Shown here: piece after piece, positions 16,701-63,648 of the stretch
How positions within the stretch are numbered: position 1 is the first letter of the stretch
How the letters are laid out: each line of letters starts with the position of its first letter
Source: Diadema setosum
Lineage: Eukaryota > Echinodermata > Echinoidea > Diadematoida > Diadematidae
Length of the DNA: 64,000 nucleotides
Direction of reading: 5' to 3'
Assembly (NCBI RefSeq): GCF_964275005.1
Contig: NW_027307655.1
Location: 186,001 to 250,000 of the forward strand
The notes under the pieces: generated by a model
What the model saw: only the letters and a program-made list of their open reading frames with translations
Told to the model about the DNA's origin: nothing
Database searches by the model: none
Position numbers and translations under genes: made by a program

Positions 16701-17325
16701 TGAAGCAAAGGTGGAGACGATCCTGAACTTTCCCCGCCCACAGAGTAAGCGAGAGCTGAGACGATTTCTGGGCATGACTGGCTATTATCGGAAGTTCTGC
16801 CATAATTTCGCTGATGCTGCAACACCGCTCACCAACATGTTGCGGAAAGATTCGCAGTTCGAGTGGTCAGATGACTGTCAAGTTGCTTTCAACCGGCTGA
16901 AGGCAATGCTAGCGAGTTCTCCGGTTCTTGCAGCGCCGAACTTCGACAAGCAGTTCATTCTTATGGTGGACGCGAGTGACACAGGAGGAGGAGGAGCCCT
17001 GATGCAGAAGGACGACAACGGAGTTGACCATCCCGTCGCGTACATGTCCAGAAAATTCAACAAACATCAGCGACGGTACTCCACTGTCGAGAAGGAGACG
17101 TTAGCGCTCGTCATGGCTCTTCGTCATTTTGACGTGTACCTGAACACTACAAAGTATCCAGTGCTGGTGTACACAGACCACAATCCGCTTGTGTTCCTGT
17201 CGCGAATGAGGAACAAAAATGGACGCCTAACCAGATGGGCGCTAGTGCTACAGGAGTACAACCTCGTGATACAGCACGTACGTGGAAAAGACAATGTCAT
17301 TGCAGACGCTTTGTCCCGTGGATAA
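13675..17325 (+). CDS. Pol polyprotein of the Gmr1-like element
   Basis: A 1216-codon open frame. A CCHC zinc knuckle lies at residues 57-70. The protease motif DTGAS is near 135. An integrase HHCC finger lies near 365-410, with the catalytic D, D and E in VDCVGP, QSDQGSNF and GALERFHQ (E near 531), followed by a GPY/F module near 672. The reverse transcriptase spans about 800-1010 with YLDD near 948, and RNase H about 1095-1215 with VDASDTG and YTDHNP. Domain order (protease, integrase, RT, RNase H) is the lineage marker. Expression by frameshift or read-through from gag would be usual for the family. Confidence 0.93.
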   Translation: MNGARRAAVLLDEYVLTHKGTFKLSSSKKGGQGVPRKGAVAPSIPKPDLDQKPNKACFYCKKDGHVMSACWKLKKKREKEGISNPKALPDAFAITRTEHLPSFERVAENYKPFISSGYVSLTPDSEQVQVHILRDTGASQSLLCANTLPFSVESSVDSEVFVRGVEGGSVRVPLHNIELKSDLVSGSVVVGILPTLPVEGVTLLLGNDIAGEKVLPHFLPSKTPVVDEATEKLVQDMPDVFPSCAVTRSMARELEKEEQEDILADTFFSRLEESNSSDDAHMDHGQMSEISRQSLVELQGKDPEIVRLAQSLVPEDEEVNETVKFYKRDGILMRRWRPPDATSDEDFRDIHQVVVPKMYRKEIISLAHEAPLAGHLGINKTQEKVLRYFFWPGLRHDVAEFCRSCHVCQVVGKPNQKIPPAPLRPIPAFEEPFSRVIVDCVGPLPRTKSGNQYLLTMMCASTRFPEAIPLRTITAKNVSKALVKFFTMVGLPKCVQSDQGSNFTSKIFQQVMSELGVECRNSSAYHPQSQGALERFHQTLKNMMRVYCSEHEKEWDEGIPLLLFAVRESVQESLGFSPFELVFGHSVRGPLKILQEKILVEPESNLLDYVCQFKDRLSCTRELAAGHLKAAQSNMKRLFDRKVKERHFEPGSKVLVLLPLQGDALKARYAGPYVVEKRVSDVNYIILTPDRRKRRRLCHVNMLKEYVENVEEANEKPVATVGIGCEVDGEDSESDDVEIPQLMLKNSEVLANLSDTLSHLPGVERAQVMDVVHEYEHLFSDVPGRTSVVVHDVDVGDSSPVKQHPYRVNPLKMDVLRKEVQYMLEHDLIEPSKSGWSSPCVLVPKQDGSLRFCTDYRLLNSKTKSDSYPLPRIDDCIDRVGNAKYVSKFDLLKGYWQVPLSERAKELSAFVTPDGFFQYKVMPFGMKNAPATFQRLINTVTSGLVGCEAYLDDIIVYSHTWEDHLLRVRALFDRLTSANLTVNLRKCEFARAKVMFLGHIVGHGSVKPVEAKVETILNFPRPQSKRELRRFLGMTGYYRKFCHNFADAATPLTNMLRKDSQFEWSDDCQVAFNRLKAMLASSPVLAAPNFDKQFILMVDASDTGGGGALMQKDDNGVDHPVAYMSRKFNKHQRRYSTVEKETLALVMALRHFDVYLNTTKYPVLVYTDHNPLVFLSRMRNKNGRLTRWALVLQEYNLVIQHVRGKDNVIADALSRG

Positions 17326-40131: not shown

Positions 40132-42021
40132 CTTTCCTGCCCGTTTTATGATACCAAATCTTAGCATAATGTAAAAGAAAAGCTCTTTCAGAAAATATGA
40201 AAAAGTCAAATTCGGCTAGGTTGACCCATTTCAGCTATTTTCAGTCCCCACGCAAAATCAGTGTGTGCGACTTTATGTTCGTTTTGAGGTGCACGGTCAC
40301 ATATAGTCAATTGCACAAACACACTTAACACTTACCTACACTTGTTTCGCTTTGTTTTGTTTTGTTTTGTTTTCTCTTCTCGAGAAGAAATACTACAGAA
40401 ATAAAAGCTCAAACTTTAATAAAGTACAAACTTCAATAATGAATTCTGGACTTGAATTTACACTTTTGACCTATAAACATGGAATAGTAGTTTGCCTGTT
40501 TGTTTGATTGTACATTATTCCAAGACTGAGCAAATCAAGAAACCCAAAGAATATTCCATTTTGTTTGTGTGTATGTGCATTTGACCATGGTATATTAGTG
40601 CCGTTGAATATCATGGCTTAATATTTTCAGATATTAGCTGGTCAGCAAACAATAAAACAAACAAAAGCAACTAACACACCAAAACAGATTCATCACTTCC
40701 AGACATTAGCTAGTCAGCAAAACAATCAATGAGAATGAAATAACAAACAAAGCAAACAAACATGTTAAATTAGTGCTATCACTTGGCGTCTTAGAATGTT
40801 GAACGCGATCTGTCAGAAATCAAATGGGAATGGATGCAGTCCATAATATATTAATATATTATGCTTTAATTCTGTTTATATTTTTTGTGTGTTTTTGAGT
40901 ATGACAATGTGTGAGTGTGTTGTCACTTTAAGCACGCAAACACACACACACACACACATACACACACACACTGGCACGTATATAAAGATATACACAAGCT
41001 CCAAAATAAAATATATATATATATATATTATATATATATATATATACATATATTTATATAAATTCATATTTATAACATTAATTTTAGGATATTTCATCGC
41101 TTGAGAATAATGTGTTGTCTATCACATTAGCTTCGAGGTATGAATTGCACGCATTTTCGTGTTTATGTCAGTTGACATGCGCATCACCTGTGTTAGGCTG
41201 AGCAGAAACTGACCATTTATAAACTGGATAAAGTATTTATTCATTTGTTTCTGGAGAGTAAAAAAAAAAAAAAAAGAGATGCCATAAATCGATATATCTT
41301 TTAAAACAAAATTAGTTAAATGCGAAACTAAAAAGACCTACAACTCTTCAAAAGAATAATCGTTTTGATGCACCTGCTATGTTGAGATCCACCGGTGATG
41401 AATAAAAACGCATGCTCAGTACTGATCAACCGATGAGGAATCGTGATCGTCAGGTAATGCCACCAAATGGCACTGTCGGAGTCATTATCTGCATATAAAA
41501 GATACGTTTTCATCTGCCTAATTATATTTTAGTATGGAGATTACATTACCATGAATATGTCAGCAGATTAGACTCTGATTTTAATACTTCAGTAGCTACT
41601 GCAAAACAATAAATGTTCGCGTGCATTCTAATTTCAAATGCACGCAAAAGTCCTTGTCTACACCCTAATCTAAGGAAATTCACAAAAAATTCATGCTGAG
41701 AAGATATCGTGTTTTACAGATATCGCCAGAAAAGCATCGCGACATTGAATCAAATATGGCACAAAGCAACCACAAACACACTAAACGGTATTTAAACATA
41801 ATGTTATGAAATCTTACAAGAAAAATCGACTCACACGTAAGCCACTTCTGTGACGTCATGTTGATAACATAGGCCGTATATTCTTCTGGAATGACATATT
41901 TGTTGAGGAGTGTAAAGCTGTAATGATCGTCGGGCGCATTAACGTAATCGTCAAGTGGAGTTGCGGTTGCTACTGCTGCCATGAAGGCAATAAGCAGGGT
42001 AACGTAGTTTGAAGAAACCAT
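21804..42021 (-). CDS. Secreted AprA / PhoPQ-activated pathogenicity-related family protein
   Basis: Fifteen exons on the minus strand (listed separately) join in matching phases into one open frame of about 486 residues. A signal peptide (MVSSNYVTLLIAFMAAVATA) precedes TPLDDYVNAPDDHYSF, a hallmark of the family (PF10142). Later landmarks are IWWHYLTI, LRQVPNQPI, TEDAIIAFTW, WLLRLPMTK, GESKRGWTTWTT, YRDRLTMPK and GSDEFFLPD. The fold is an alpha/beta hydrolase; the likely nucleophile is Ser209 in GESKRG, with Asp301 and His330 as partners by analogy. There are several N-glycosylation sequons (NMT, NGT, NVS, NIT, NST). In Dictyostelium, AprA is a secreted chemorepellent and growth repressor; the role in animals is not known to me. 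All splice sites were read by eye; the 33-nt exon 11 is the least certain. Confidence 0.9.
21950..21989. repeat. (AAT)n microsatellite
   Basis: AAT units follow an A tract just inside intron 14. Confidence 0.9.
22336..22401 (-). CDS. AprA-like exon 14
   Basis: 66 nt, phase 0 in and out, donor gtaaga. Encodes VPGKYIAEF then TPEIGWQCFFIR. The GW..FFI block matches the C-terminal beta domain of the family. Confidence 0.75.
23764..24453 (+). repeat. Family A TIR element
   Basis: Full-length ~690-bp copy, from tgtgaccctgcaccacaaaa to gttttgtgatgcgcggtcaca. It lies in AprA-like intron 13. The right end runs into (CA)n and (TA)n. Confidence 0.85.
24464..24514. repeat. (TA)n flanking a family B copy
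   Basis: TA units, briefly interrupted by a single c-t step, directly abut the left end of the family B element. Confidence 0.9.
24515..24763. repeat. Family B TIR element in (TA)n
   Basis: 249 bp. Inverted ends begin tgaagagtttgtttgcaaaa and mirror it at the right. (TA)n flanks both sides. Confidence 0.9.
24818..25338 (+). repeat. Family A TIR element, internally deleted
   Basis: Both termini are intact (tgtgacactgcacctcaaaa and gaggtgcacggtcaca). About 170 bp of the left half is missing after the ttcagttaa block. Confidence 0.85.
25637..25730 (-). CDS. AprA-like exon 13
   Basis: 94 nt. Enters in phase 2 (AG then A makes Arg). Encodes RDFRWAAAKVPGTTDPKLQV and then ILYKRFPVRNP; donor gtaggg. 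RDFR after a short basic link is typical of the family. Confidence 0.85.
26365..26453 (-). CDS. AprA-like exon 12
   Basis: 89 nt, phase 0 in and 2 out, acceptor cattcacag and donor gtaaat. Encodes GIIEMNSDPLPAKVEVFRT and TNRGP. Confidence 0.85.
27200..27833 (-). repeat. Family A TIR element, reverse, right terminus missing
   Basis: Reverse copy beginning at the gtgaaaccggtcaacc block and ending in tctgtgatgcagggtcaca. A (CT)n tract lies inside it near 27323-27345. Confidence 0.75.
27913..28571 (+). repeat. Family A TIR element
   Basis: Forward copy from cgtgaccctccaccacaaaa to gtagtgcacggtcaca, with a long T tract in the right terminus. Confidence 0.8.
29130..29162 (-). CDS. AprA-like exon 11 (33 nt, tentative)
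   Basis: Acceptor ccgaacag and donor gtggtg, phase 0 on both sides. Encodes KMFLTWIRKIS, which fits the short W-containing link expected between exons 10 and 12. Skipping it would also keep the frame, so it rests on fit alone. Confidence 0.4.
30561..30648 (-). CDS. AprA-like exon 10
   Basis: 88 nt, phase 2 in and 0 out. Encodes ITPNDEHELRFHDVELTNQL and then TSFILSVVE. His in NDEH lies where the family has PNAEHS and is the likely catalytic histidine. Confidence 0.85.
31645..32050. repeat. Recurring GTAACGTTACTAAC motifs
   Basis: Four close copies of the motif lie at about 31645, 31660, 31856 and 32036, in an otherwise AT-rich intron. Confidence 0.7.
32060..32092 (+). repeat. Family A right-terminus fragment
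   Basis: A short piece ends gttttgagatgcacagtcaca, matching the right terminal repeat only. Confidence 0.4.
32160..32277 (-). CDS. AprA-like exon 9
   Basis: 118 nt, phase 1 in and 2 out. Encodes YRDRLTMPKLIITAGSDEFF and then LPDDSYYYFNDLPGPKYL. Asp in GSDE is the likely acid of the catalytic triad. Confidence 0.92.
33641..33770 (-). CDS. AprA-like exon 8
   Basis: 130 nt, phase 0 in and 1 out. Encodes NMHHHYRSLGGWTFEFNDYY and continues to IIDPY; joined to exon 9 it reads DPYAYRDRL. Confidence 0.92.
34272..34361 (-). CDS. AprA-like exon 7
   Basis: 90 nt, phase 0 on both sides. Encodes RGWTTWTTGVVDKRVVAIAP and then IVLDLLNMVK. Confidence 0.93.
34856..34881. repeat. (GA)n microsatellite
   Basis: About 12 GA units in intron 6. 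Confidence 0.9.
35087..35182 (-). CDS. AprA-like exon 6
   Basis: 96 nt, phase 0 on both sides. Encodes AAVRAMDTITTFVAQQYAGQ and then NVSKFIVAGESK. Ser in GESK is the likely nucleophile. Confidence 0.93.
35782..35898 (-). CDS. AprA-like exon 5
   Basis: 117 nt, phase 0 on both sides. Encodes TDPKQMKRTEDAIIAFTWRH and ends WLLRLPMTK. Confidence 0.92.
36072..36172. repeat. ~25-bp palindromic minisatellite, four units
   Basis: Units are built on ATGAGCTCCTTTGCGGAGAC. In each, CTCC and GGAG (or close variants) can pair. Units differ at several positions. Confidence 0.75.
36665..37069. repeat. Recurring CTTACGTATGGGACA motifs
   Basis: Four near-identical 15-mers lie at about 36667, 36834, 37030 and 37053 in AprA-like intron 4. 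Confidence 0.75.
38450..38498 (-). CDS. AprA-like exon 4
   Basis: 49 nt, phase 2 in and 0 out, donor gtgagt. Encodes VGATLRQVPNQPIVFK. Confidence 0.9.
38957..39002. repeat. (TA)n flanking a family B copy
   Basis: TA units with one TG step. Confidence 0.9.
39003..39251. repeat. Family B TIR element in (TA)n
   Basis: 249 bp, very close to the copies at 24.5 and 59.9 kb, with (TA)n on both sides. Confidence 0.9.
39361..39426 (-). CDS. AprA-like exon 3
   Basis: 66 nt, phase 2 on both sides, donor gtaagt. Encodes PPDPRSDNEVRRTSNIALGA and G. Confidence 0.88.
39585..40299 (+). repeat. Family A TIR element
   Basis: Full copy from tgtgaccctgcacctcaaaa to gttttgaggtgcacggtcaca. The inner half is A-tract expanded. 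It lies in AprA-like intron 2, with TA next to both ends. Confidence 0.88.
40938..41052. repeat. (CA)n followed by (TA)n
   Basis: Two adjacent dinucleotide tracts with short interruptions, in AprA-like intron 2. Confidence 0.85.
41374..41488 (-). CDS. AprA-like exon 2
   Basis: 115 nt, phase 1 in and 2 out. Encodes NDSDSAIWWHYLTITIPHRL and then ISTEHAFLFITGGSQHS. IWWHYLT is diagnostic of the family. Confidence 0.92.
41835..42021 (-). CDS. AprA-like exon 1 with signal peptide
   Basis: 187 nt from the ATG; donor gtgagt leaves phase 1. Encodes MVSSNYVTLLIAFMAAVATA, then TPLDDYVNAPDDHYSF and YTAYVINMTSQKWLT. A hydrophobic core followed by ATA before TPLDDY fits secretion. Confidence 0.92.
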
Positions 42022-47188: not shown

Positions 47189-47240
47189 ATGGCATGGTGT
47201 ATACTTCGGATTGTGTTCATCACACTCGCGGTTTATAAAG
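47189..47240 (+). CDS. Ig-HD gene exon 1, signal peptide
   Basis: 52 nt; ATG then [16 protein letters not shown], donor gtatga, leaving phase 1. The hydrophobic core and phase fit a leader exon for an Ig domain. A 5' untranslated part is expected upstream. Confidence 0.7.
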
Positions 47241-48426
47241 GTATGACCAAAAAAAAAAAAAAAAAAAATCTTCAGACTTTTCGATATAAACTTTAAAATA
47301 TGTTCAGACAATGCAACCAGTCTTATATTTGGGTAAGAATTAATGTTGGGTTGGCTTATGTATTATACCAGCGCATCCAGACAATATCAGAAGTTGGTTT
47401 CCCATGCATTTTCTAGGCAATAATAACATTAAAATAGCATTTGCATACTATAAAACAACAAGGACACTGGATTTGCAATCGAAATGAATCCGTATAAACT
47501 GTAAGACAGAATCAACTTTTTTCCCCTGTTTTATTAAATGTCAGAAAATGAACTGTAAAAAATCTACATGTGTGAAGCGTTCGACGAAAAAAAAAAATTA
47601 ATATACAGTTCTACATGTTTATTTCTAGGATGTTTATTAGGTAAGTGACGTTTATTTTTATTCAGACAATCTAGCATGTTGCAACGCTTTGTTCCAATCA
47701 CAATCTTACATTCTTTATTACTTGTTGTTTTTAATTACTTGTCAGTGTATGACAGTGGAATTCATAGTATATTTCGACTTGTTCTGGTGGATTTGTTGTA
47801 TTATTGGGCTCTGTTATCGTTTTGCTAATGATTTTTTTTTCTTCGATTCTCCCATTATTTCTCGGTAATGGTGTGCCATTTTCATGCAGCATTTGCGGAT
47901 CCCAACGTGCACTTACATTCCAACTCGGGTCAAGACGTCATGCTTCAGTGCTCCCTGCAGAAAGCTGACGTCTTTGTGCTGTACTGGCAGTATTCCCTTT
48001 CAAAAGAGCCATTTTCAACATGCCGAAACCAAAGCTTCGTAGAACTTGTAACAGAAAATCGACTCGACGGTACCATTCAATACGGGGCTAACTTGACGAG
48101 TGATTTCAAATCCAAACTGATCTTAAAGGCCGATTTCGATGTGATTCTTGTAAATGTATCTCAACATGATGCGGGGTGCTACCGGTGTGGCGTAATCTTG
48201 TATGACGCTCAGGAGTACTTGGCCACTACGACCATTCTGAGAATTACGGGCAGCTATGATACTGGTGACTAGAACTGCACATACTTCTAACTAATGTAGT
48301 GCTTATAAGCGTGTGCATGCAAAAGTCACAAAGTTTTTTATAATTATATTTTGGGCTAGTCCTTTATCTTCGTCAGATCACTTTTTTCAAAACTGTAGGT
48401 ACTTTCTGACCCCCCCCCCCCCAAAA

Positions 48427-48507
<81 letters not shown>

Positions 48508-51500
48508 ACCCTGCACCTAAAAACAAACAAAAAGTCGCCAAACATGAACTTTTAGTTAAGACCATATTCTGAAAGAACAGACTTTAAGCTTTAAAATGAT
48601 GTATAACTGAAATCAAATGGACTCTCCTAACATATCTAAATATTGGAAAGAAAGCACAAACTCAGGAAAAGTGTGGACTGAGAAAAGAGGCTGTGAAGTA
48701 CAGTGTCTCTTCAAGCGCTTAATCTTTACCAAACCGTGCTGGCTGTGCGATGAATGGGACAAAAAAAACAAGAAGTAAACCACCAGATTAACAACAATGA
48801 AGGGATTATTAGATTAAACTGAAATTAAGCATGCCTCATTACCACATTCTGTCCATAATTAATGCCAACTTTCAAAGCAGTAGCACTATTCTTTCAAACG
48901 TTATTAGAGTTGAAAGTGAAGAGTGTTGACAAGGTTTTTCAGAACTGAAAAAAAAAAGGATTCTAAAGACACACCTAATCACACGATTCTACCAAAAATG
49001 TTCGAGATAAACTGCTAAAAAACACACTTTCTATGATACCAAATTTTAGCATAATGTAAAAGAAGACCCGCTCTTTTAGAAAATATGAAAAAGTCAAGTT
49101 CGGCTAGGTTGACCAATTTCACTTATTTTCAGTCCTCAAGCAAAATCAGTGTGTGCGACTTTATGTTCGTTTTGAGGTGCACGGTCACATATGATAAAGA
49201 ATTTATATAGAGGGATGGCACAATGCGCACCCCCCCCCCCCCCCGGCCTAGAAGAGGTAAAAGTAGTTTGGGCTTTGTAGGGTTAAACAATACAGTGTTA
49301 AATGTATTCTTGCAATTCCTGGTCGGCGCATGTTAGGGAAACGGCACTGATTGGGAACCAAACTCTGGGGGCTAATTTTTAAATGTAGGCCTCCTGATTT
49401 TTCTTCTCTTGAAAAGCTGAAAACCCACTTTCCCATTCAATTTAAGATTCCAAACTAAAGACTAATATAGAAGGAGAAATGTTCTTTCAGAAAATATGGA
49501 AAACTAACAATTGGCCCGGTTGACCCGTTTCACCTTTCGTGAGTCATCACAATAAAAAAAAAATCAAGGGCAGCGAATTTTTGTTGCTATACATATCGAA
49601 AAATACAAAACACTGTTTATACAAGAAAAATACAACCCAGTGGTTAAAGTGATATGGACACCATAACTCTTTAAAGACCTATAAAGTCTCCACCAACTTC
49701 ACTGAATGGCAATGTTCTACGGCAATTATTAGCCTAGAACGCTGCAAGTAGTCGTAAGAACGCTTAGAAGGTAAAACTGAGATAATCAGAATAGCCAGAG
49801 ATAATTTTGATAGCAAACGCTTAAACAAATGCCATGCTACATTAATGAGAAAAGTAAAATTAAAGTGAAGGGTATATTTGAAGAGCTTGCTTCCAAAAGG
49901 CGCTAAATCCATCATTTTTCAATGGATTTAGCGCCTTTATGTTGCAAGCTCTTCATTTGGAGTCAGTGGTTTAGGTTTTTGTACACGGATCAACAAGGAA
50001 GACGTGTAATTAGCTGGCAATGTGAAAGTTAAAAAAAAAAAAATCTATAGAAAATGAAAATGGAGCTGGTTGCTAGAAAAGAAAAGTATAGGCGAGGGTT
50101 TCCAATACCGATTGTATACATATTATATTGCATGAGAAAACAATATAGAGATTAACAATCAAACAAACCAACAACCGAAAAATTTAAGCTCTCAGCGAAC
50201 CTGTAGGAAATTATGACCGTCTTTATTACATAGTACCACATTTCTGATATTTCAGACAGTGTTTACGAGAAACGTGGACCTCAACCAAAAAACAAGAATG
50301 AAATAAAATGTGACCCGCTGCAAGAAAAGGATCCGAAAGTCGAAGGAAAAAAAAAATTATGAAAATGACATGACATTATTTCCTTACTCCTCCACTTAAA
50401 TGTCATATGTAACATGACTCATAAAATCATTCGGTGATTTTATTAGCGCATGTCGAGTGGTTTAGGACATCAGCGTTTCGAGAAAACCGCCTTCAAAGTT
50501 GTCCTTCTGACACTATCATGATCAAGGGAAAGCAAGACATTTTTCATCGTTTGACAAAAGAAGGGACGCTCCTAGCAACCTCCGCGATGTTCATTCAAGC
50601 TTAGCGACCAATCATTAACCAGGATGCCACGCACTGACCAGTGAGATCACTCCTTCGTTGCTAGGGGCGGAGTCTAGCTGCGGCGCTAAATCCAAATCTT
50701 CGGACACATTGCTGTTCCGTTAAAAGTCAGATAATCATGGTCCAGAAAAATGCTTTTCTCTTGCCTTTCAGTTGATTATTTAGCTTCGAAGTTTCAGGAG
50801 ATGATAGAAGAAACATTATACTACAAAATTAATGTCAAAAATAGATTTCTGAACGTTTTGACGGATTTCGATGATCTGACATTAAACTCGATTTTCTCGG
50901 CTCACCCGTCAGCAACTTTAGGATCCTTTTGTTGTAGCGGGCCACCAATACGCAATCTTCAATGGACCTATTTCGTTTTCACTACACATCATTACTTTGT
51001 ATTTTAACTACACAATGCTTTACCCCGCTGTAGCTTAATTGGTAATAAAAAAATACTAACAAAACTAATGGTAAGTTATATGTTGTTTAAAGCTTTGCAT
51101 GATGAAGTAAGTGGGGGGAGAAATATTTTCGGTGACACAATGTGTAAGGCAAGTTATACACATTTTGATTTTGATTACTGCAGGAAAAAATATCGTCGAA
51201 GAACCAACCTCAAAACCGGATTTTACTGCCTTGTTCATCTTTCTTGGAATAGTCGTCTGGGTCGTGTCGCTTGTGTCCGTGGTTGTCATTAGAAAGAAAG
51301 GCAGGTGGCATTATTTGCAAATAGCTATCATGTAAAAAAAAAAAAAAAAACGAATTGACATGAAATATCGAAAAGATTTAATGCGACGAGAGCTTTATAT
51401 TCGCGAAAATTTCTCGTCAACCTGTTTTTAATGAAAAGAATCTGTGAGGGCAAGTCATAAAGTTATGGGTTAGATTTGTTTGCAACTTTTTGCGTTCCTA

Positions 51501-54500
51501 TCTATGTTTAATGTACAACACACATGAGCCTTGTCTTCTGTTTTGTGACATCTTTATTAACATGCCATTATAAAAAAAGCGCGACAAAACAAATTTTAAT
51601 TAATCATGTTCTCTTATAGCTATATTTACCATGTTTGTCAACTTCAAATGTAAGACTAATAATAACGGAATTTAAGTAGATCAAGATCTACCGAAGTAAA
51701 TCTCTTTTAATGTCATTTATTTCGCACCTGTCTTTATGATTGGGGAAAAAGAGAGAGAGAGAGAAAAAAAAAAAAAAACCCAGTAAATTGTCCTTGTCTA
51801 TGGTTACTTCCTTTTGGAATAAGTTGCAGACATACATGCTATATTCTTTGATAACCATTTTCCTTCTTATACAAAACACAAACAAACAGTAATTCAAGCA
51901 CACTGCAGACAACGTTTCATCAGCCTAATCCAAGAAATCCTATTTGTGTCCGTACATCGTTAAACTATCATACTGTACCAAAGCGTTCTTTAGATAATTT
52001 TCATTGGTATAATTGAATGCAAATATCTCCCAATTTATTGTTATTGTTTCAAACAGGGATTACATTGAAGATTTTCGGAGACCAAGAGGAAGAAGATGTA
52101 TCGTCTCCGATTCTTCCAGACTTCAGAAATGGTATATTTTGTACTCGGTTTTCATTATTACTCTTCAAAAAGTCCGAAGAATAACGGTGTGAGTTTACAT
52201 AAAAATTTGAAATAAAAATTGGGAAATTGTACCATCAATGCAGAATAATCGATGAAAGCACTATATTAACGTCAGAGTGAAGTAAAACAATTACGAGATG
52301 AAAAGCAAAGAGGACTCCTTTGTTATCATTACATTGTATCTATATTTGAAACATTTACACTACATAAAAAATGCAACTCTGCCGAAGTTAATAATATCAG
52401 AGTTATTGGCATCTTAACATATGTGACCCTGCACCTCAAAACAAACAAAAAGTCGCCAGACATGAATTTTTAGTTAAGACCATATTCTGAAAGAGCAGAT
52501 TTTAAGCTTTAAAATGATGTATAACTCAAATCAAATGGACTCTTCTAACCTATCTAAATATTGGAAAGAAAGCACAAACTCAGGAAAAGTGTGAACTGAG
52601 AAAAGAGGCTTTGAAGTACAGTGTCTCTTCAAGCGCTTAATCTTTACCAAACCGTGCTGGCTGTGCGATGAATGGGACAAAAACAGGAAGTAAACCACCA
52701 GAGAAACAACAATGAAGAGATTATCAAATTAAACTGAAATTAAGCATGCCTCACTAACACATTCTGTCCATAATTAATGCCAACTTTCAAAGCAGTAGCA
52801 TTATCCTTTCAAAAGTTATTAGAGTTGAAAGTGAAGAGTGTGGACGAGGTTTTCAGAAATGAAAAAGGGATTCTAAAGACACACCTAATCACACTATTCT
52901 ACCAAAAATGTTCGAGATAAACTGCTAAAAAAACACACTTTCCTGCCCGCTTTATGATACCAAATTTTAGCATAATGTAAAAGAAGACCCGCTCTTTCAG
53001 AAAATATGAAAAAATCAAGTTCGGCTAGGTTGACCCATTTCACTTTAATTTTCAGTCCTCACGCAAAATCAGTGTGGGCGACTTTATGTTCGTTTTGAGG
53101 TGCACGGTCACATATGTAGACCAAAACAAAAATAAAAAAGTTAGACCCTCTGTTTTATTGATTATATTTAACTGACTGTTTATGTCATTGTGCAACTACA
53201 GGAAAACCCCGAGGTCGAATAAACAAGACAAAGGTAACAATGACATGACATCAAGCACATCATACATCAGAGAGCAATAAAAAAAAAAAAAATCATCTCT
53301 ATATTATCCATCTATCTTCCATATAAAAGAGTCAGGCTGAATGAACAATTTGTTATTTATGTATAGACATATTATGTTATGTTGAATGAATATTTAATCT
53401 TTAAAGGTACTGTTAACCACTGGGAGCGGTGATGAAAAAAAAATGCTCGAGATATTGCATTTGATGCGCATGTGTGGGTCCGTTTTATCGCGAAATATCT
53501 TCCATGTAAAAGTTTTTGCAATTAAGCCTAGAATGTACGGAGATGTCACTACTTTTTGTCTTTAAAAAATGAATAAGCGTAGACTGTTTAGTCTATAAAC
53601 ATTCATATTATTTGTATGTAACAAAATCAAATTTCACAGTCGTTGTTTCTATCCATGGCTCACATTTTAGAACTATTTCGAAGCTATAAAGCTGGGTTTT
53701 TGTTTCATCTGCAAATGGTAAATAGTGGCTTTAATGACATATATCTACAATTTTATGGGCGCAGAATGGCATAGCTGTCGTCTTTGTTTCATTGAGGGCT
53801 TTTTTCGGTCCTCATTCCACGCATGACTTCAAGAAGAACCAGATTGCTTTAACAGTTGACTTGTTTCGTCTCAAGTTGGTTTCTCCGTTTTCTCCCACTA
53901 TTTATGTGTAATGAAGATGTGGATCTGAACTGTTATGTTTAAAAGAAATATCAAAATGTATGAAACATCTTATGATTAATAACAACAATGAGTAGCTGTT
54001 ATAGAAATAACGTAGTAAGCAACCTTCTGCTTCCAAACTTAAATCTTTACATTGATCACATCGTATTTAATACTTGAAAACTTTAATTTTCTCACTAATT
54101 GGTATTACCTCATATATTTTCGTTGATTGAAAAACAACATGTGTATGATGATATATGGTATTTTGCATGTCATTCTAATGCTTATCATGTATCTCATAAA
54201 AAATGAGAATTAATTCAATATCATTGAGCGAAAAGGTTTATGTGCATAAACATTACATTCTCATCACGTTGAATACATGTACAATTACCCTGAGCTTTTA
54301 AATTATCTTGTCACCCGTACCAGACAATCAACGACGTCATTCATGGCATGATCGAATTACCGTATTTCTGTCACCTTATAATCGACACACCGGAGTTTCA
54401 GCGCCTTCGTTTCATTAAACAGCTGGGACCAGTGTGTTATGTTTACCCTTGTGCAGTACACACTCGATTTGACCACTCCATCGGGTAGGCTATTTATTAA

Positions 54501-57500
54501 TTTTTCATCCTCTCTTTCTATCCCTCTAATTTCCTTTTCTTTTTTGTTTCATGTGTTAAATAACGGAAACAAATAAATTTACAGTAGAACTGATATTATA
54601 CTCTGCCCTTTGCCATAGGCATGCCATGGAATGTTTTCTCTACTTTCATGTATTTAAGTAACTGATCCATACCTTGATTCACCCAGCCGTTATCTGGCAA
54701 CAGCATAAATGCACCTTCAATAGTGTTTTTTTTTTTCATACAGTATTTTATTGGACAATATACGAGGAGTCTATTTCTTTCTCTCCTGTTCCTTCTCTCA
54801 TCTTCCATCACCGCTATCCCTTTCTTCTTTGTTTTTTTTTTTTAATTTCTGCGCATCACTTGACTACATAACCATGAATGTTCTGTTGTGTGAAATGTTA
54901 TTAATTTCGGCTTATTGGGGATTCTCTTGTATTGATTTTTTTTTTAATCATTATATCTCCGTTCTCTGTCACAATGAGTTGCTTACCTTTCTTGTGCAAA
55001 ATCAGCTATGAATATTGATGAACTATGTGCATAATATATTTCCGAAACTGATCATAGTTGAATACTTGTACCATGCAGAAACAGTTGGTGAAATGAAATG
55101 AAAATGAAATTTTGCTCAAGAAAATTAAGTCTTCAACAAAAGACGAGAAAATGAACATCTTCTGTTGTTTTTTTTTTCTTTTAATGGCATTACTCATTTT
55201 CCCAGAAACCCTAATATTCCAATGCTCGAATGATCAAGTATGTACGTGTGTGTCACACACAAACACAGTAATATAGCTTCTGACCATTCGAGCACTGAGA
55301 ATCTAGGGTTTCTGGGACGAACAGTGAACTAGGGCTTTCTGTAGCTCAGTCGGTAGAGCACCGGACTAGCATCCGGAGGTCTCTGGTTCGAATCCCAATG
55401 GAATCCCATTTTCTTTGCTCAATTTACCACGAATATATATTTTCATAACTTGAATGTTGACTTTTCAATATCGGTCATAAAACCTTTGTTTAGATAAATA
55501 TGAAAAAACACGCAATTTTCAGGTACGGTGCATAAATCCAAGACCTGGTGTTTACGACGTATTGCTACCTTCAAATCCCATTGACTTTAATATGTCTCGC
55601 CTATATATGTATTTTGGTTGATCTTGATGGATTTTTATAGACTAAGACTCCTGGTTTCAATGTGTTCAACAGTCTCAGTAATAGCCTACAGGAGTTATTT
55701 GATGTTATTCATTATATACAGCACCTTTACATCAACAACAAAGACAATTATGTTAATAATGCTCGTCTTTGCATTCCTTCTTTTTGTATAACTCAGAGTC
55801 TGTTATATGGCTGGAGAGCTTGCAAAAAAGCTTCAATCTGAGGAAAACAGCAACATCACCGCTGTTGATGTACGATGCATGGAAATTGCCGGTTTGTGCC
55901 ATGACCTCGGTCAAGGTCCCCTCTCTCATGTTTTCAAAGACTTTATGGCTGAACAAGGAAAGGACTGGAAGGTACTAAGAGAATAATGCTATAGGTCCTA
56001 TTTTCACCAGTGTTGATACAATGGGGGAATTGTTCGTCTCATTTAAGACAGCTCATGAAGTCACCATGCATAGATGTTAAAAACAGAACCAACCAAAAGA
56101 AAAAAAAAAAAACACACACACAAAACGCACGTTTACTTTTGACCTTTGACTCACATTTATTGTTTGAAATTTGAAATTAAAATTAATGTAAAAGAAGACC
56201 GCTAGTTTATATTCAGATATGTTGTTCTTCTTATTCCAAAAGACCAATCTGTGCAAAATGTTATTTATGCTGATGAGCTGAGGAGCCTAAATGTCGAGAC
56301 GTACGAGGTGCACAACTAACATACTGATTACAAGCGCTCGCATACGCGAGCGTTAATTCGTACCGAGTAGCATACGACGTCGTAGGCTAGTATGGGCGTT
56401 TGTGTACTGTTCATCCATGTAGACATCTCAGATTCCACTGAATCAAATTATACCAAAATTACAGGATATACTTTATAGGTTATATCCAGGTACTCACTTA
56501 GATTTGAACGAAATCGGTTATCGAGAAGTATCAATATCGATGCTGACTTTCAAGTCGTCACTCAAAACAAACTTGCTCTTTGCGAGAGATCGCGGCGAGC
56601 ACTGCCTCCACAATCGAGAACTGAAGGTTAGCCATCTAATATTGTGCGAACAGGGAATCTACGCGAGAGATACAACTCAATGTACAATGATTGTGGCAAG
56701 CTGTGTGATTTAGGAACTATATTTCTCATTCAACTTGTCACAAATTATTTGTGTATTGATTTTTTTTCTCCTGATTACTTGAAAGAGTTGTCTCATACTA
56801 TTAGATGGCTAACTCCTGTCTGTGCGCTCGCAGGAAGAGTACGCCGCGGTCGAAGTAACAGAGTAAATTTTGAGCGACGACATGAAAGTCAATATCAACA
56901 CTTACGCGTCCCGATATGTGAATTGGTTCAAATTTACATGAGCAATTGGAAATGAGTCATAAAGTATTTCTTGTGATTGTGGTGCAATTTGGTATGGTGA
57001 ATTTTGAGAATATCCACATGAATACGGAAGTATGCTAGCATTGGTTGTCTACACTACAGCGCCAACGCTGCGGGAGCTGCCTGGTCAGGCCACACTCCGG
57101 GATAACTCCTTCTAAAACTAGATCCAGCCCTTGGTGTGAATAAGACCACCAAGAGGTTTATCTTAGCTAAACATCGAAAATACTAAAAACCCTATACCTT
57201 ACCTACAAAATTTCAGCACAGGAACAACACAGTTTTCTACGGTCAGCATGTACGGGTAACTATGCCAATTTAATTTTTCATAGAGATTTGAAAATTTCTC
57301 CACATATTTGTGACCGTGCACCTCAAAACGAACAAAAAGTCGCACACACTGATTTTGCGTGAGGACTGAAAATAAGTGAAATTGGTCAACCTAGTCGAAC
57401 TTGACTTTTTCATATTTTCTGAAAGAGCCGGTCTTCTTTTACTTTATGCTAAAATTTGGTATCAACAGGCAGGAAAGTGTGTTTTTGAGCAGTTTATCTT

Positions 57501-59826
57501 GAACATTTTGGGTAGAATAGTGTGATTAGGTGTGTCTTTAGAATCCCTTTTTCATTTCTGAAAAACCTTGTCCACACTCTTCACTTTCAACTCTAATAAC
57601 TTTTGAAAGGATAGTGCTACTAATTTTAAAGTTGGCATTTATTATGGACAGAATGTGTTAATGAGGCATGCCTAATTGCAATTTAATCTGATAATCCCTT
57701 CATTGTTGTTACTCTGGTGGTTTACTTCCTGTTTTTTGTCCCATTCATCGCACAGCCAGCACGGTTTGATAAAGATTAAGCGCTTGAATAGACACTGTAC
57801 TTCACAGCCTCTTTTCTCAGTTCACACTTTTCCTGAGTTTGTGCATTCTTTCCAATATTTAGATAGGTTAGGAGAGTCCATTTGATTTGAGTTATACATC
57901 ATTTTAAAGCTTAAAGTCTGCTCTTTCAGAATTTGGTCTTAACTAAAAATTCATGTCTGGCTACTTTTTGTTTGTTTTGAGGTGCAGGGTCATATTTTAT
58001 CTAGGTAAAAAGATTTTAGAGAGATTTTTAACATATTTATTCCAGATTCATTTTGCAATTTGAATATTAAGATAACAGCTGTTTCAGTACTTCGTGCAAC
58101 ATTTCTAGTACTTTGGCATGTGTACTTTGTCTTGCCAAATAGGAGTTGTGCACCTGTGACGTACACCAATTTGTATGGATCGTTCCATGGCTTGCTTGTT
58201 TTCAATTTGTTTTCAAAGAAATCATAACAGGCTTACCCTGGGTTATTTTTTGTTTTTTGTTTTTGCTGTTGTTCTTGGGATTTTTTTCAGTTGTAGGCAT
58301 CAAAAATTTTATATAAGACTCATATCACAATTAGAAAGTGTCGCACACTGTCTTCTTTTCACTTTCTTTTCTCCCCGCATTTCACTCTATCTGAATAGTC
58401 ACCATCGCTGCTGCAGCAAAAGTTTGTATACACGTCATTACAGATCTATCATAACCGACTGTTGTTTTTCTTCTCAACTTTAAACCATTGTTTTAGCCCG
58501 AAGAAGAAAGTACTCGCATTCTGAGACATTTAATCACGAAAAACAACCTCATGGGGAAGCTTGAGGAGTTTGGTATCACTGAGGAGAAATTAGATATCAT
58601 CTGTCAACTAATATGCAGCCAAACAACCGAGCGGAAAGGTGACAAGGTAGAAAGTCACTTTCTTTCTTTTTTAAGTAGCTCATTACTTAGATGACGTCAC
58701 TTAATGTATTCCTTCTTCAGAAATATTTCATTTACACACATTCAACTGGACGAAAAGGCATGAATGATAACAAATATAGCAACGACACATGAAATAACAA
58801 AGATAGCTTCATATATTTCCTATAATGTCTGTGTACTATAATTTTTCACGTGATCACGTTTTCTCTGGATCATTTGCAGTAGACAACTAACTACTGATAA
58901 TGTTACCTCAGCCGGTTGATAGTATGAAATATGTCGACTTTTATCCGGTCAATAACACATCACAGAAAAATGTTTGCCACCTTTTTCAGTATTAAATGAG
59001 TTCCTCTTTTTTATCCTTTCTTTCGGTTAGCTTCACACCTAGCGCATTACAGATTCCAATATCAGAAGCAGCAATCAGTATTGTTGTTGTTTTTTTAACA
59101 TTAGTTATACAATAAACTTCGGTAGTCTTTACGAAAAAATGATAAAGTGAGTTTTACTTTTTTTTTGTAATATTTATCTCGAATACCGTATGCACTTTTT
59201 GAATGGAATGTCATATTTCAACAACAATGACTGTATAGGTCTTCATAAACAATACACTTATCCATATCTGATATAAGAATAACTATATTAAGTCACGGAT
59301 TGCACTGAATATAATTTTCAGTTAATTCCTGCAGAGAAGTTCTACCTCAGACAGATAGTTAAGAACATCGTCAATGGAATAGATGTCGACACCTGGGACT
59401 GTGTTGCAAGAGACGCACATTTTCTTGGCATAGCATCAGCATTCGAAATCGAACGAATTCTCTCACATGTCAAAATTTGCGAGGTCAAGCGTGCCGGGGA
59501 GGACAAGGCACGGAAGGAACTGTGTTTCCGAGAAAAGGTAATGTTTCGTACTTCATGTTCGTACTTCAAATACGTTAAAATACAATCGTTATAAACGTTG
59601 ACTTGTCACAAATACTTTCAGAAATGCTTTCAGATCATTTCACATGTAATATTCAAACACAATAGTTTATAGGAATGAAAATTAGATTCTAATGTTTCCT
59701 AACCATTTCCGGAAGTGACAAGAAACTGTACGGTTTGAAATTAGTTCACATATGGAGACGCAATAAAGAAATATTTTTTTTTGTTAAATATATTATCAGC
59801 TCTCCGTTAAATATCATGAACATTTA

Positions 59827-59860
<34 letters not shown>

Positions 59861-60340
59861 ATGAAGAGTTTGTTTGCAAAAACCGATAAGTCCATATTTG
59901 CTAAATGGAGATATTTGCGGTTAAAGGTCAAGAAAAATAAAGAGAATAATAAGAAAATGTTTGCTTCTTTTGACCATAACTTCAAAAATATACCTTCATA
60001 TGTAGTGACCAATATATCATTTAAAGGGTATTATTTTTTACTTTATGACAGAGATCGTACGTCAAAATCTTCAAAAATGGACTTATCGGTTTTTGCAAAC
60101 AAACCCTTCATATATATCTATATATATATATATATATAATGGTATTATTATCCGCGTGTCGGAATAAGAGCATGAAGACGATGAAGACAAACAAGTTGAC
60201 ATAATGCATTAGAATCTAACTTCATTTATTTGTAAACAAAATTCTCGACCCTTTTGATCCGTGCAAGGGTCGAAAATTTGGTTTACAAATAAATGAAGTT
60301 GGATTCTAATGCATTATGTCAACTTGTTTGTCTTCATCGT

Positions 60341-60384
<44 letters not shown>

Positions 60385-60467
60385 TATGTAAGGTCAAAAT
60401 AAAGTATGTTTTATATAATTTAACAAAATGTTGAATTTTAAGACTTTAATGACACGAACAATACACC

Positions 60468-60507
<40 letters not shown>

Positions 60508-62246
60508 ATGTGTCAAGCCCTGCCTCCTACAACTGCATAGTCAAAACTGGTTCCTTGGAGGAACAGGAGTGTTGCGACACGGATTGTCGCCCCTTCACGG
60601 ATTGTCGCCCCCGAGGCGACAATCCGTGACGCTTGTGCAGTTCCCAGTTTTTGACCTCGAAGGCGACAATCCGTGATGACAAAGAATATGTTGCGGCACG
60701 GATTGTCGCCCCGTCACGGATTGTCGCCCCGGGCTCGGGGTGATTCCTCCGGTGTTAAGCTTTGGTGGGATGGGTATGACTGGTAAGTTATGCGTATGTG
60801 TGTGTGTGCGTGTGTGTATTGTGAGCTGCATGAGATGTGATGTGTATGATTTGTAGGTGCGTACAATAAGTGACTTGTGTATGGGTTTCCGTATTGTTGT
60901 GTGTGTGTGTGTGTGTGTGTGTGTTTGGAGTATAATAATACAATATGTAGAAACTGTGCATGTTTGGTGGTTGTATAGTGCTAGTGGTTTGTTTGTTTGT
61001 GTGTATGCGTGTGCCTGTATGCTTACGTGTGTATGCGGTATATAGTGGCTTATGTGTATATCAAAGGGTATGTGATGGTGCGTGTTTGTGGGCACAATTT
61101 TGTGCCTGCATGAGTATCTGAGGGGTTTGGTGTTCGTGGGCTACGTAGGCCCTACGTATGTGTGTTGTGTGTGAGCGTTCGTGTGTCTACTTAAGGCATC
61201 AGTCACATAATGCTCTGCGTCCGGCGTTACGCCCAAATAAGTCTTTTTTTCTTTTTTTTTCTGCGGACACCCGGGGATCTCTTGCTGTCATTAGAGCATT
61301 TTTACAAAACATACGGGAAAAAATATGCGGGGCGATACGGAGAGATAGATAACTCGATTATAGACCAACCCTACTAATAATTTCTTCACGAGAAAGTTTT
61401 CACATGCAGGGCCCTACCAAACCTACATTCGTTGAATATATTGGTTTGGATCATGTAGCACCTTCTTACTTACAAGGGCATATACATAAAAAAGCACAAA
61501 TACATTACACAAATCTAGAATGAAATCAGTCATAAAAAACCCGACCACCACCCCCTCCCCAACCGAAACAAACCTAGGGCCTACATCTATCCTAAATATT
61601 AAATCCTACCAACATCTGTCATGCCATTTATAACTATCCTTCTTCAAATCCAATCCCCAACCCACCAACCCCTGATTAAACAAAACCTAAATCATCCTAC
61701 ACCCACATTCACCAACCCAAATACATACATACACACACACACACACACAGACACACACACACACGAAGGTTCGCTATTCGGAAGTTTCGTTTTTTTTTTT
61801 TCCATTTATCCGAAACACACAATTCCCTATACCTAGAGGTTCGTTGATCCAAAAATGAAATTCGGAATAACGAACCTTCGGAATAAAGAGCCTTCGGACG
61901 AATGAGCCTTCAGAATAACAAACGTTTGAAATAACGAAATGTAACCCCCTTCCCACATACACAAGCACACCCGAACCGATACCACATTCCTTCCTGATGA
62001 AACGACTTCCCAATGTTGATAAATAAGACATAATGGACCGTATGCAGAAAAGCAGCATCCGCCCGCACGCAAGCTCCACTCCGAATTCATTTACAAATCC
62101 GTCAAACAAACTCATCAAATTCAAAGCTGCTGATAAAATCAATATCAACGTTCATGCCAGCAACAGCTTACTAGGTGTCCCTCCCCACGCGAAGCTAAAA
62201 AAAAACACATACGCAAAAAACTGACATAATAAACACATTCTTCCAT

Positions 62247-62308
<62 letters not shown>

Positions 62309-63296
62309 AACGGACACTAAATTATCATGTGCACGCGCACATTCACACTTCCTTGAAACCTTTCCATTACTTTCTACATGGCATGTTTGCATGGATGTAG
62401 CCATGTAAGTTATGTGTTAGTATTCCAATTATTATGTCCAGTACGATATTACCCAGCAAAATGTGATTCCGCGCGACAATCCGTGCCGCCAACGCCCGTC
62501 ACGGATTGTCGCCCCGAGCAGGAGGCGACAATCGGTGTAGGGGCGACAATCCGTGTCCCAACAAGGGGTGTGCTTTAGACACAGTCTGTTGGTGACTAGT
62601 CTTCCAAGCTAGTTTTTTTTTTTTTTCTTTAAAGGTGCATAGTCCCGGTAGTGTAGAGGGCGCTGTTGATTATACTGCCAATCACCGTTAGCATTGATAC
62701 GAAGATTACCGAAGTTGAGCTGTCATCAAGAGTAAAGTGCGTAGGTGTTGCTAAGTAACGTTGCCTTCGTTGTCTTCTCTGCGCATCGCGCAGTCTGTAG
62801 TAATGCAGGGTGCGTGCATAATGTGCCTGTTATTATGATATCACAAAAGAAGTTTGCTAAAGCCGTCAACCCCCTCAGCCGAATCATGAGCCGAACTGTG
62901 AGTCGACCACTGACTACAGCGTAAGCGCTAAAGAGGAGTCGATAGCGTAGTTCTCTATAGGAAATTTGCGCCGTGCGCCCGCGTACGCATTTGACTAAAA
63001 CACCGGGACCATGCACCTTTAAGAAATCATACAAGGAAACATAATTTAATTTTTGTATATACAACGAAACTTTTACTCTGTAATCATGGAAAATGTAATC
63101 ATGATGTAAATTGTCTTTCAAAATGTGTTTTCATGCTGTCATTAAATCAAATTACCCTTTTCTCTCAATTGAACTAGTAAGATAAATGAATCATGTGCTT
63201 TCTTTTTTCTTTTATGTTTTTTTGTAGGTTGCAAATGACATAAACCACATGTTTGTAACACGGCGTCATATTTTTGATGCAGCCTATCATCACAGG
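47189..63296 (+). CDS. Ig V-set transmembrane receptor with SAMHD1-like HD domain (partial, runs off the right edge)
   Basis: Ten exons, or eleven with an optional microexon, join in matching phases into 474 codons with no stop. Order: signal peptide (1-20), Ig V-set domain (about 21-138), transmembrane helix (about 158-178) followed by RKK, linker (182-216), then a SAMHD1-like HD domain from Lys217 to the window edge. Family landmarks are [65 protein letters not shown] and [15 protein letters not shown]. The HD metal ligands map to His268, His306, Asp307 and Asp402. SAMHD1 is a cytosolic or nuclear dNTPase with a SAM domain; here an Ig ectodomain and membrane anchor replace the SAM domain. 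The join needs a GC-AG intron after the transmembrane exon. Two overlapping genes or an exon-skipped isoform are the alternatives. The C-terminal lobe lies outside the window. Confidence 0.72.
47629..47640 (+). CDS. Possible 12-nt microexon
   Basis: gatgtttattag lies between acceptor tttatttctag and a perfect donor gtaagt, phase 1 on both sides. It would add GCLL to the leader. Inclusion is optional for the frame. Confidence 0.35.
   Translation, partial: DVY
47890..48264 (+). CDS. Ig-HD gene exon 2, Ig V-set domain
   Basis: 375 nt, phase 1 on both sides, the usual phase for Ig exons. Acceptor tttcatgcag, donor gtgact. Canonical Cys38 and Cys117, Trp50 in LYWQY, and the DAGCYRC form of DxGxYxC. 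Extra cysteines at 62 and 114 recall pIgR/CD300/TREM-type V domains. Sequons are NQS, NLT and NVS. Confidence 0.88.
48432..48502. repeat. (TA)n microsatellite
   Basis: TA units with one CA step, between a polyC-polyA tract and a family A copy. Confidence 0.95.
48504..49189 (+). repeat. Family A TIR element
   Basis: Full copy in the Ig-to-TM intron, from tgtgaccctgcacctaaaaa to gaggtgcacggtcaca. Confidence 0.9.
49400..49590 (+). repeat. Family A right-half fragment
   Basis: Diverged right half: cccactttcccattc, then gttctttcagaaaatatgg and ggttgacccgtttcacct. The terminal repeat is incomplete. Confidence 0.55.
49879..49955. repeat. 77-bp miniature foldback related to family B
   Basis: A near-perfect hairpin. 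The left arm begins tgaagagcttgcttccaaaa and continues through a cgctaaatccat block. It matches the family B terminal repeat at most positions but has only a 9-nt loop instead of ~180 bp. Confidence 0.7.
50440..50960 (+). repeat. Duplicated promoter-like segment, copy 2
   Basis: Uninterrupted counterpart of the segment hit by the retroelement. It contains a ccaatca box, ctcctagcaacctc and gttgctagggg (both RFX X-box-like half sites), and an ATG ([12 protein letters not shown], then stop). It lies in the intron between the Ig and transmembrane exons. Confidence 0.65.
51184..51300 (+). CDS. Ig-HD gene exon 3, transmembrane segment
   Basis: 117 nt, phase 1 on both sides. Acceptor gattactgcag. 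Encodes [13 protein letters not shown], then a 21-residue hydrophobic helix (ALFIFLG to VVVI) and the stop-transfer RKK. The donor used here is GC (aaag, then gcaggt); a GT donor 4 nt further would change the frame. Confidence 0.75.
52057..52131 (+). CDS. Ig-HD gene exon 4, juxtamembrane linker
   Basis: 75 nt. Acceptor gtttcaaacag, donor gtatat. In phase 1 it encodes [20 protein letters not shown] and DFRN; in the alternative frame it encodes a basic [13 protein letters not shown]. Phase 0 is closed by a stop. Confidence 0.65.
52422..53112 (+). repeat. Family A TIR element
   Basis: Full copy from tgtgaccctgcacctcaaaa to gaggtgcacggtcaca, next to TA on both sides, in the intron after exon 4. 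Confidence 0.92.
53202..53233 (+). CDS. Ig-HD gene exon 5, link into the HD domain
   Basis: 32 nt, acceptor tgcaactacag, donor gtaaca. Phase 1 in and 0 out. Encodes [10 protein letters not shown]. The final Lys falls at the position of human SAMHD1 Lys116, just before INDxIHG, so the exon fits the HD domain as well as the linker. Confidence 0.68.
54324..54484 (+). CDS. Ig-HD gene exon 6, HD domain start
   Basis: 161 nt, phase 0 in and 2 out. Encodes [29 protein letters not shown] and RFDHSI. Asp238, Gln243 and Arg246 match human allosteric residues Asp137, Gln142 and Arg145; His268 matches metal ligand His167. Confidence 0.93.
55201..55316. repeat. Foldback with ~36-nt arms
   Basis: The left arm begins cccagaaaccctaatattcc; the right arm ends in its complement, tagggtttctggg. 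The arms also share atgctcgaatg / cattcgagca. The loop is about 45 nt. Confidence 0.75.
55335..55410 (+). tRNA. tRNA-like sequence or SINE head
   Basis: An A box (tagctcagtcggtagagca) and a B box (ggttcgaatcc) are correctly spaced. The D arm is good. The anticodon stem ccgga / tccgg leaves a 6-nt loop, and the acceptor and T stems pair poorly. It is more likely a tRNA pseudogene or SINE head than a working tRNA. Confidence 0.5.
55797..55971 (+). CDS. Ig-HD gene exon 7, HD motif
   Basis: 175 nt, phase 2 in and 0 out. Encodes [12 protein letters not shown], then [17 protein letters not shown] and GKDWK. His306 and Asp307 are the HD pair. Gln310 replaces the human His210. Confidence 0.93.
57309..57993 (-). 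repeat. Family A TIR element, reverse
   Basis: Reverse copy in the intron after exon 7, from tgtgaccgtgcacctcaaaa to gaggtgcagggtca. Confidence 0.9.
58497..58646 (+). CDS. Ig-HD gene exon 8
   Basis: 150 nt, phase 0 on both sides. Encodes [13 protein letters not shown], aligned to the human THEQ..MMFEHLI stretch. Pro330 stands where the human enzyme has His233. Confidence 0.85.
59322..59537 (+). CDS. Ig-HD gene exon 9, second half of the active site
   Basis: 216 nt, phase 0 on both sides. Encodes [30 protein letters not shown] and VKICEV. Asp402 is the fourth metal ligand. Thr and Cys replace human Lys312 and Tyr315; Asp319 is kept. Confidence 0.94.
59862..60110. repeat. Family B TIR element in (TA)n
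   Basis: 249 bp with (TA)n on both sides, in the intron after exon 9. Confidence 0.9.
60175..60344. repeat. 170-bp near-perfect foldback
   Basis: The left arm starts aagacgatgaagacaaacaa and the right arm mirrors it through about 75 nt; the central loop carries gggtcgaaaat-type complementary halves. It abuts (TA)n on the right. Confidence 0.85.
61731..61764. repeat. (CA)n microsatellite
   Basis: CA units with one GA step. Confidence 0.9.
61859..61938. repeat. 16-bp tandem repeat, five units
   Basis: Units resemble CCTTCGGAATAACGAA. A reversed unit lies at about 61764-61789, so the array and its mirror could pair. Confidence 0.75.
62249..62308. repeat. (CA)n microsatellite
   Basis: CA units with short TA and CG interruptions. 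Confidence 0.9.
63228..63296 (+). CDS. Ig-HD gene exon 10
   Basis: 69 nt, phase 0 on both sides. Encodes [20 protein letters not shown] and HHR, aligned to the human MFHTRNSLHRRAYQHK stretch. Later exons lie beyond the window. Confidence 0.9.
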
Positions 63297-63648
63297 GTGA
63301 CTATCGCGATATCAATTATGTAAGCACCACGCTAGAGGGGTCCATACTATCAATAATCACCAAAAAATAGAAAATAATAATGCAGACTGGTGCAAAATCT
63401 TCTTTTTTTTTTTTTGTTGCATACATAGAGATACCTAGATATGAAAAACCCAAGTCCAAATTTGGCTCGCCTCTCTGGAGACCCTTTACGAAGTCATACA
63501 AGGAAAGATAATCAGTATAATGTTTTACACTTAAATTTATATGAATACCATTCCACTCTTCCAATCATGTCATGATTTCTATTTTCTATATTTTTTCTCT
63601 AATGAATTTGGGTCCCTTAGAAATTCAGGTACATATATTCTTGATAAT

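Follow-up and report, generated by a model that had tools for sequence, protein, structure and literature searches.

Does a single gene of Diadema setosum encode a protein that combines an immunoglobulin (Ig) ectodomain with a single membrane helix and a SAMHD1-like HD domain, and would such a protein act on nucleotides? The question arises from a stretch of 64,000 nucleotides (nt) of NW_027307655.1, hereafter the window, which sits on a 442-kb contig (called C29) of the 912.7-Mb assembly; all coordinates are window positions unless a contig is named. The original prediction had proposed this fusion, with a ligand bound outside controlling nucleotide hydrolysis inside. We consider it fairly probable that one gene is present, which would encode a type I single-pass protein with an Ig V domain, a helix and a SAMHD1-like HD domain and would belong to a small family in the same genome, its inner part having lost catalysis and serving an assembly or scaffold role. 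The fused architecture finds support in exon order and phases recurring at paralogous loci, but hydrolysis by the window copy does not, given the changes in its active site.

All ten exons of the proposed chain were found, bounded by AG and GT except for one GC donor; they have the phases originally given, and no stop interrupts the joined chain. The 32-nt exon supplies the Lys aligned to SAMHD1 K116, as had been claimed (query residue 217 corresponds to residue 116 of 7ujn_A, the 626-residue SAMHD1 chain that provides our numbering and that we take to be the human protein). One boundary had to be moved: the fifth HD exon, formerly ended at 63296, most likely ends at 63319 (AT, then gtaagc), because this site joins the next exon in frame and the C29 paralog has the same site. 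The gene extends beyond the window, with at least three further exons at window-equivalent positions 64675-64731, 65316-65505 and 65957-66061 that match the SAMHD1 C-terminal region (best E 1.2e-05). Including these, the chain comprises 599 codons without a stop, the end of the gene still lying beyond.

In the composite protein, Pfam V-set scored 30 bits (cut-off 26) and Pfam HD 36 bits (cut-off 22), and residues 210-474 matched SAMHD1 chains with a best E of 6.4e-58. A hydropathy scan of 48265-54324 gave a single membrane-helix candidate, in the same frame as the Ig exon and followed by basic residues. Three N-glycosylation sequons lie in the V domain (residues 68, 89 and 110 in the form with the microexon). 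By established rules, a signal-like leader and the V domain would precede the helix and the HD domain would lie inside; the product would thus consist of a signal peptide, one Ig V domain, one helix, a short cytoplasmic linker and the HD domain with its C-terminal part. Splicing in vivo, topology and loss of activity of the window gene are what we infer from its sequence.

The strong support for the fusion comes, as far as sequence comparison can indicate, from paralogous loci rather than from the window alone. We found at least eight SAMHD1-like copies: the window gene, a copy on the minus strand of C29 (C29 minus), three C19 copies (C19A, C19B and C19C) and the copies C9, C3 and C38. An HD profile search of the genome listed seven places, of which six matched the window gene by tblastn and one (L003) did not; the window gene and C29 minus were not listed by this search. 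Ig exons lie upstream of the HD exons, on the same strand, in four of the eight copies (window, C29 minus, C19A and C19B), with 38-48% identity to the window Ig over the matched stretches. The order and phases Ig (1-1), transmembrane (TM; 1-1), linker 1 (1-1), linker 2 (1-0) and HD (0) are repeated at both C19A and C19B (Table 1), and Pfam recognised two V-set stretches and an HD domain in the C19A composite. At C29 minus, the order leader, Ig, TM is repeated; its linkers and HD exon 1 are masked by a run of N.

Table 1. Exons of the candidate gene (window positions) and of its related loci
Feature	Position	Strand	Phase and remarks
Leader exon	47189..47240	+	ATG start, phase 1 out; signal-peptide-like, judged by eye; related leader at C29:306549-306501
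Candidate microexon, 12 nt, optional	47629..47640	+	1-1; between leader and Ig exon; TTTCTAG, 12 nt, GTAAGT; frame open
Ig V-set exon, 375 nt	47890..48264	+	1-1; Pfam V-set; paralogous Ig exons
TM exon, 117 nt	51184..51300	+	1-1; GC donor (AAG, then GCAGGT)
Linker exon 1, 75 nt	52057..52131	+	1-1; same place and phase in C19A, C19B, C19C
Linker exon 2, 32 nt	53202..53233	+	1-0; Lys aligned to SAMHD1 K116; 23-nt counterparts in C19A, C19B, C19C
HD exon 1	54324..54484	+	0-2; SAMHD1 match; paralogs
HD exon 2	55797..55971	+	2-0; H206, D207, H215 kept; H210 to Q, D218 to K
HD exon 3	58497..58646	+	0-0; first codon Pro at expected H233
HD exon 4	59322..59537	+	0-0; D311 kept; T at 312, C at 315
HD exon 5	63228..63319	+	0-2; end corrected from 63296
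C29 minus	C29: leader 306549-306501; Ig from 305869; TM 304170-304051	-	TM 120 nt, 1-1, GT donor; N from 302500 to 297501, then HD exons 2-5
C19A			two Ig exons of 393 nt each (1-1), TM 99 nt (1-1), linker 1 102 nt (1-1), linker 2 23 nt (1-0), HD exons 1-4; all open
C19B			second Ig exon 390 nt; TM and linker 1, 111 nt each; linker 2, 23 nt; HD exons 1-3
C19C			TM 94 nt, frame broken; open linkers of 111 and 23 nt; HD exons 1-3

The two linkers are the joints on which the fusion depends. At all four loci where they could be read, the length of linker 1 is divisible by three and that of linker 2 leaves a remainder of two, and C19B and C19C, two further copies, keep both linkers open and spliceable. 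In the C19 introns nearby, 20-26% of aligned sites differ, and of 58 indels 42 have lengths not divisible by three. In a neutral simulation at these intron rates, 0.8-2.3% of copies retained two open linkers together with all four splice dinucleotides; as the linkers had been chosen by between-copy similarity, and C19B and C19C are partly dependent, this simulation serves as a guide and not as a strict test.

On the other hand, a number of observations weigh against a single fused gene. The window linkers correspond to the C19 linkers in position and phase but have hardly any sequence similarity to them, and dN/dS of the joined linkers falls in the range of 0.6-1.0 (0.61, 0.79 and 0.97 for the A-B, A-C and B-C pairs of C19 copies). 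For the same pairs, in the same order, the values were 0.11, 0.10 and 0.24 in HD exon 1, 0.17, 0.15 and 0.08 in HD exon 2, and 0.62, 0.49 and 0.36 in HD exon 3; the A-B pair gave 0.47 in the second Ig exon and 0.37, resting on six changes, in the TM exon. From these comparisons the linker sequence is, in our judgement, loosely constrained, with the frame nevertheless kept. Furthermore, the TM exon requires a rare GC donor to keep the frame, the GT donor at 51304 (4 nt past it) being ruled out by the broken frame that it causes; in the C29 paralog, the corresponding end of the TM exon carries a GT donor. The V-set of this paralog scored 23.2 bits, below the cut-off of 26. The first Ig exon of C19B is apparently frameshifted, and no match to HD exon 4 was obtained there in the stretch examined. 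In C19C the TM frame is broken, and the upstream stretch examined yielded no Ig. No Ig was found in about 25 kb upstream of C9, where an N run follows, no Ig or TM in the 9 kb read for C3, which start at its HD exon 1, and neither HD exon 1 nor Ig in about 9.5 kb for C38. At C9 we also found no convincing exon upstream of HD exon 1 and no SAM domain with the one query sequence used, nor was there a nearby SAM_2 hit among 25 listed matches.

The linkers of the window itself add to these points. Stops close phase 0 in both and leave phases 1 and 2 open; of these, only phase 1 leads into the open HD frame, just as first argued from the stop pattern. The argument is correct but weak, because 173 of 200 dinucleotide shuffles of 51301-54323 also contain an in-order linker-like exon pair of the same phases; the frames in the window do no better than these shuffles, and we rejected the view that their agreement proves the fusion. 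Such weak statistics would be compatible with an Ig-TM receptor gene and a SAMHD1-like gene that adjoin and were duplicated together, the linkers being part of an HD gene whose first exon or start was missed. This arrangement would also suit C19C, with its linkers and HD exons and no visible Ig, and the in-frame ATG that linker 1 contains in C19A and C19C, where an HD start is possible for those two. However, neither the window nor C19B has an in-frame ATG in linker 1. We found no alternative first exon for the HD part within the window: 51301-53201 holds no ATG-starting open exon with a fair phase-1 donor, and no phase-0 ATG-starting exon occurs up to 54320, so that nothing fitting lies between the TM exon and linker 2. 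Candidates of fitting phase numbered four in C19A and three in C19B, none common to both, and the recurrence at these two loci of the phases from TM to HD also speaks against two genes. We therefore regard two adjoining genes as unlikely and a single fused gene as the better account.

The history of the family was examined with a tree of the HD exon 1-3 stretch, which covered seven of the eight copies (C38 was left out) and one SAMHD1 chain. The window copy groups with C29 minus (96/95), the three C19 copies group together (99/98), and the window copy, C29 minus, the C19 copies and C3 are split from the C9 copy plus the SAMHD1 chain (99/98). On this tree, two changes are required for the label "Ig found upstream", and 139 of 500 shuffles need as few; its distribution is no better than chance often gives, because C19C and C3 are without the label. 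A single origin of the fusion might hold if the Ig was lost in C19C and if that of C3 lay in its unread upstream region. A more distant Ig-like stretch (E 6e-5 to 0.001) lies upstream of the window on the minus strand, at C29:173432-173725 (loci L012-L013).

Would the fused protein hydrolyse nucleotides? We take H167, H206, D207 and D311 to be the metal ligands of SAMHD1, and the roles of H167, D311, K312 and Y315, as well as the numbering of R451, are likewise our assumption. The window HD domain keeps K116, D137, Q142, R145, R164, H167, H206, D207, H215 and D311, and the Arg aligned to R451 is also kept. Both the metal-ligand set and the AL1 (GTP-site) set D137, Q142, R145 and R451 are therefore complete. 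Changed are H210Q, D218K, H233P, K312T and Y315C. In SAMHD1, H210A and H233A disrupt catalysis and D137, Q142, R145 and R451 are key AL1 residues, according to PMC7045340; in PMC7311409, H233A is reported still to tetramerise, H215A to be dead and D218A to be heavily reduced. The window copy thus lacks both catalytic histidines of the SAMHD1 deoxynucleoside triphosphate (dNTP) hydrolase. With Q and P in place of the His that SAMHD1 requires at 210 and 233, the window HD domain is probably a pseudoenzyme, with the fold kept and dNTP hydrolysis lost. For this gene, ligand-controlled nucleotide hydrolysis is unsupported in view of Q210 and P233, and also of T312 and C315.

The other copies differ in this respect. 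H210 is present in seven of seven and H233 in six of six (C38 is not readable at 233), and positions 312/315 are K/Y in the three copies readable there (C29 minus, C19A and C9); position 218 is non-Asp in other copies read as well. In C29 minus, the visible catalytic residues are intact except for Q at 218 (HD exon 1 is masked), so that this neighbour looks active and hydrolysis by it is possible. C19A has H at 311, and the C3 copy (L006, C3:25651161 region) has N at the catalytic H215 and may be another dead member. Catalysis seems to have been lost more than once in the family, because different members lost different residues (C19A at 311, C3 at 215, the window copy at 210 and 233).

The same residues could be read in two other ways. 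The window copy might be a decaying pseudogene, in which case its lost active-site residues would say nothing on function; besides the several changes themselves, the frame damage in C19B and C19C demonstrates that the family does yield decaying copies. Yet its 599 codons carry no stop or frameshift despite a residue difference of 33-50% from the C29 paralog in the HD exons, its splice sites are usable, and the metal and AL1 residues are kept, which makes decay improbable in our view. We are slightly more doubtful still of a receptor whose HD phosphohydrolase would remain active, under ligand control, with altered chemistry or on another substrate. The retention of H167, H206, D207, D311 and H215 would suit it, as would the diverse chemistries of the HD superfamily (PMC8177086), but Q at 210 and P at 233 stand where SAMHD1 requires His, and K218, T312 and C315 add to the difficulty.

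We favour a GTP-gated assembly or scaffold role for the fused protein because hydrolysis is probably lost while AL1 is kept. A ligand bound by the Ig domain would lead to receptor clustering, and the HD part would act as a nucleotide-gated (GTP) oligomerisation or scaffold module, perhaps forming mixed assemblies with the catalytically intact C29 paralog encoded on the opposite strand and so tuning a membrane-bound dNTPase. The ligand, the GTP gating and the pairing with this paralog are speculative. A broader scheme, which we put forward tentatively and hold to be rather less likely than not to apply, is that a SAMHD1 module became the inner half of Ig receptors, with active and dead members kept as a paired neighbourhood set whose ligands set local dNTP breakdown or GTP-gated assembly.

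SAMHD1 is a soluble antiviral restriction factor under nucleotide control, and in vertebrates it usually has an N-terminal SAM domain. The window gene is like it in the HD domain and part of the C-terminal region, which align, and in its K116, metal-site and AL1 residues; it differs by the Ig V domain and membrane helix in front, by H210Q, H233P, D218K, K312T and Y315C, and by the lack of a visible SAM domain. With one SAM profile tried, none was found in the composite, and C29 had no match among the 25 SAM_2 matches listed genome-wide. To single-pass V-set receptors (PD-L1, CD83, polymeric Ig receptor) it is similar in the V-set, the phase 1-1 Ig and TM exons and the helix followed by basic residues, but its cytoplasmic part is an HD domain and no motif tail. 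Against Protein Data Bank (PDB) sequences, the Ig part gave weak matches, the best (E 0.0046) to a short stretch of the polymeric Ig receptor. A single-sequence structure model of the Ig exon was rejected (mean pLDDT 36.6); HD exon 1 had no match in phages. Receptor tyrosine phosphatases, receptor kinases and receptor guanylyl cyclases, as receptor enzymes or pseudoenzymes, share the plan of an outer recognition domain, one helix and a live or dead catalytic domain inside, but the inner domain here is of the SAMHD1 family.

We know of no SAMHD1-family domain in a receptor, and to our knowledge no animal is known in which a SAMHD1 receptor ties surface recognition to nucleotide metabolism or GTP-driven assembly. 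Among the papers listed in our literature searches, no title or abstract opening describes an Ig-SAMHD1 protein. A receptor-form SAMHD1 would establish such a tie and, if true, connect recognition outside the cell directly with the nucleotide pool needed by viruses. Within the family, HD domains that look active and others that look dead would also share one scaffold, a naturally occurring series in which catalysis and nucleotide-driven assembly could be separated experimentally.

Several repeats surround the gene. Copies of one repeat, each about 700 bases long and alike by up to 97%, occur at 48501-49196, 52419-53116, 57306-57999 (inverted) and 63640-64287, with many more, on both strands, on C29 and C19; one copy sits between the two linkers and stops about 85 bases short of linker 2. 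The motif CACGGATTGTCGCC and its reverse complement are repeated several times at 60577-60737 and 62474-62564, in the intron that precedes HD exon 5. A tRNA-like match on the plus strand (55337-55403; 32.8 bits, gathering score 29) lies within the intron separating HD exons 1 and 2. An array of units of about 267 bases, more than 99% alike and some inverted, was seen downstream of the last HD exons found (L008-L009, window-equivalent 67999-70795). Upstream of the gene, 41680-42021 (minus strand) holds what is likely another gene's first exon, which matches Pfam PhoPQ_related at 23.1 bits (cut-off 20.3). Finally, a Ty3/gypsy-like open frame, 1216 codons long, occupies 13675-17325 on the plus strand; it has integrase, reverse transcriptase and RNase H domains, its integrase part preceding the reverse transcriptase part, which is an unusual order.

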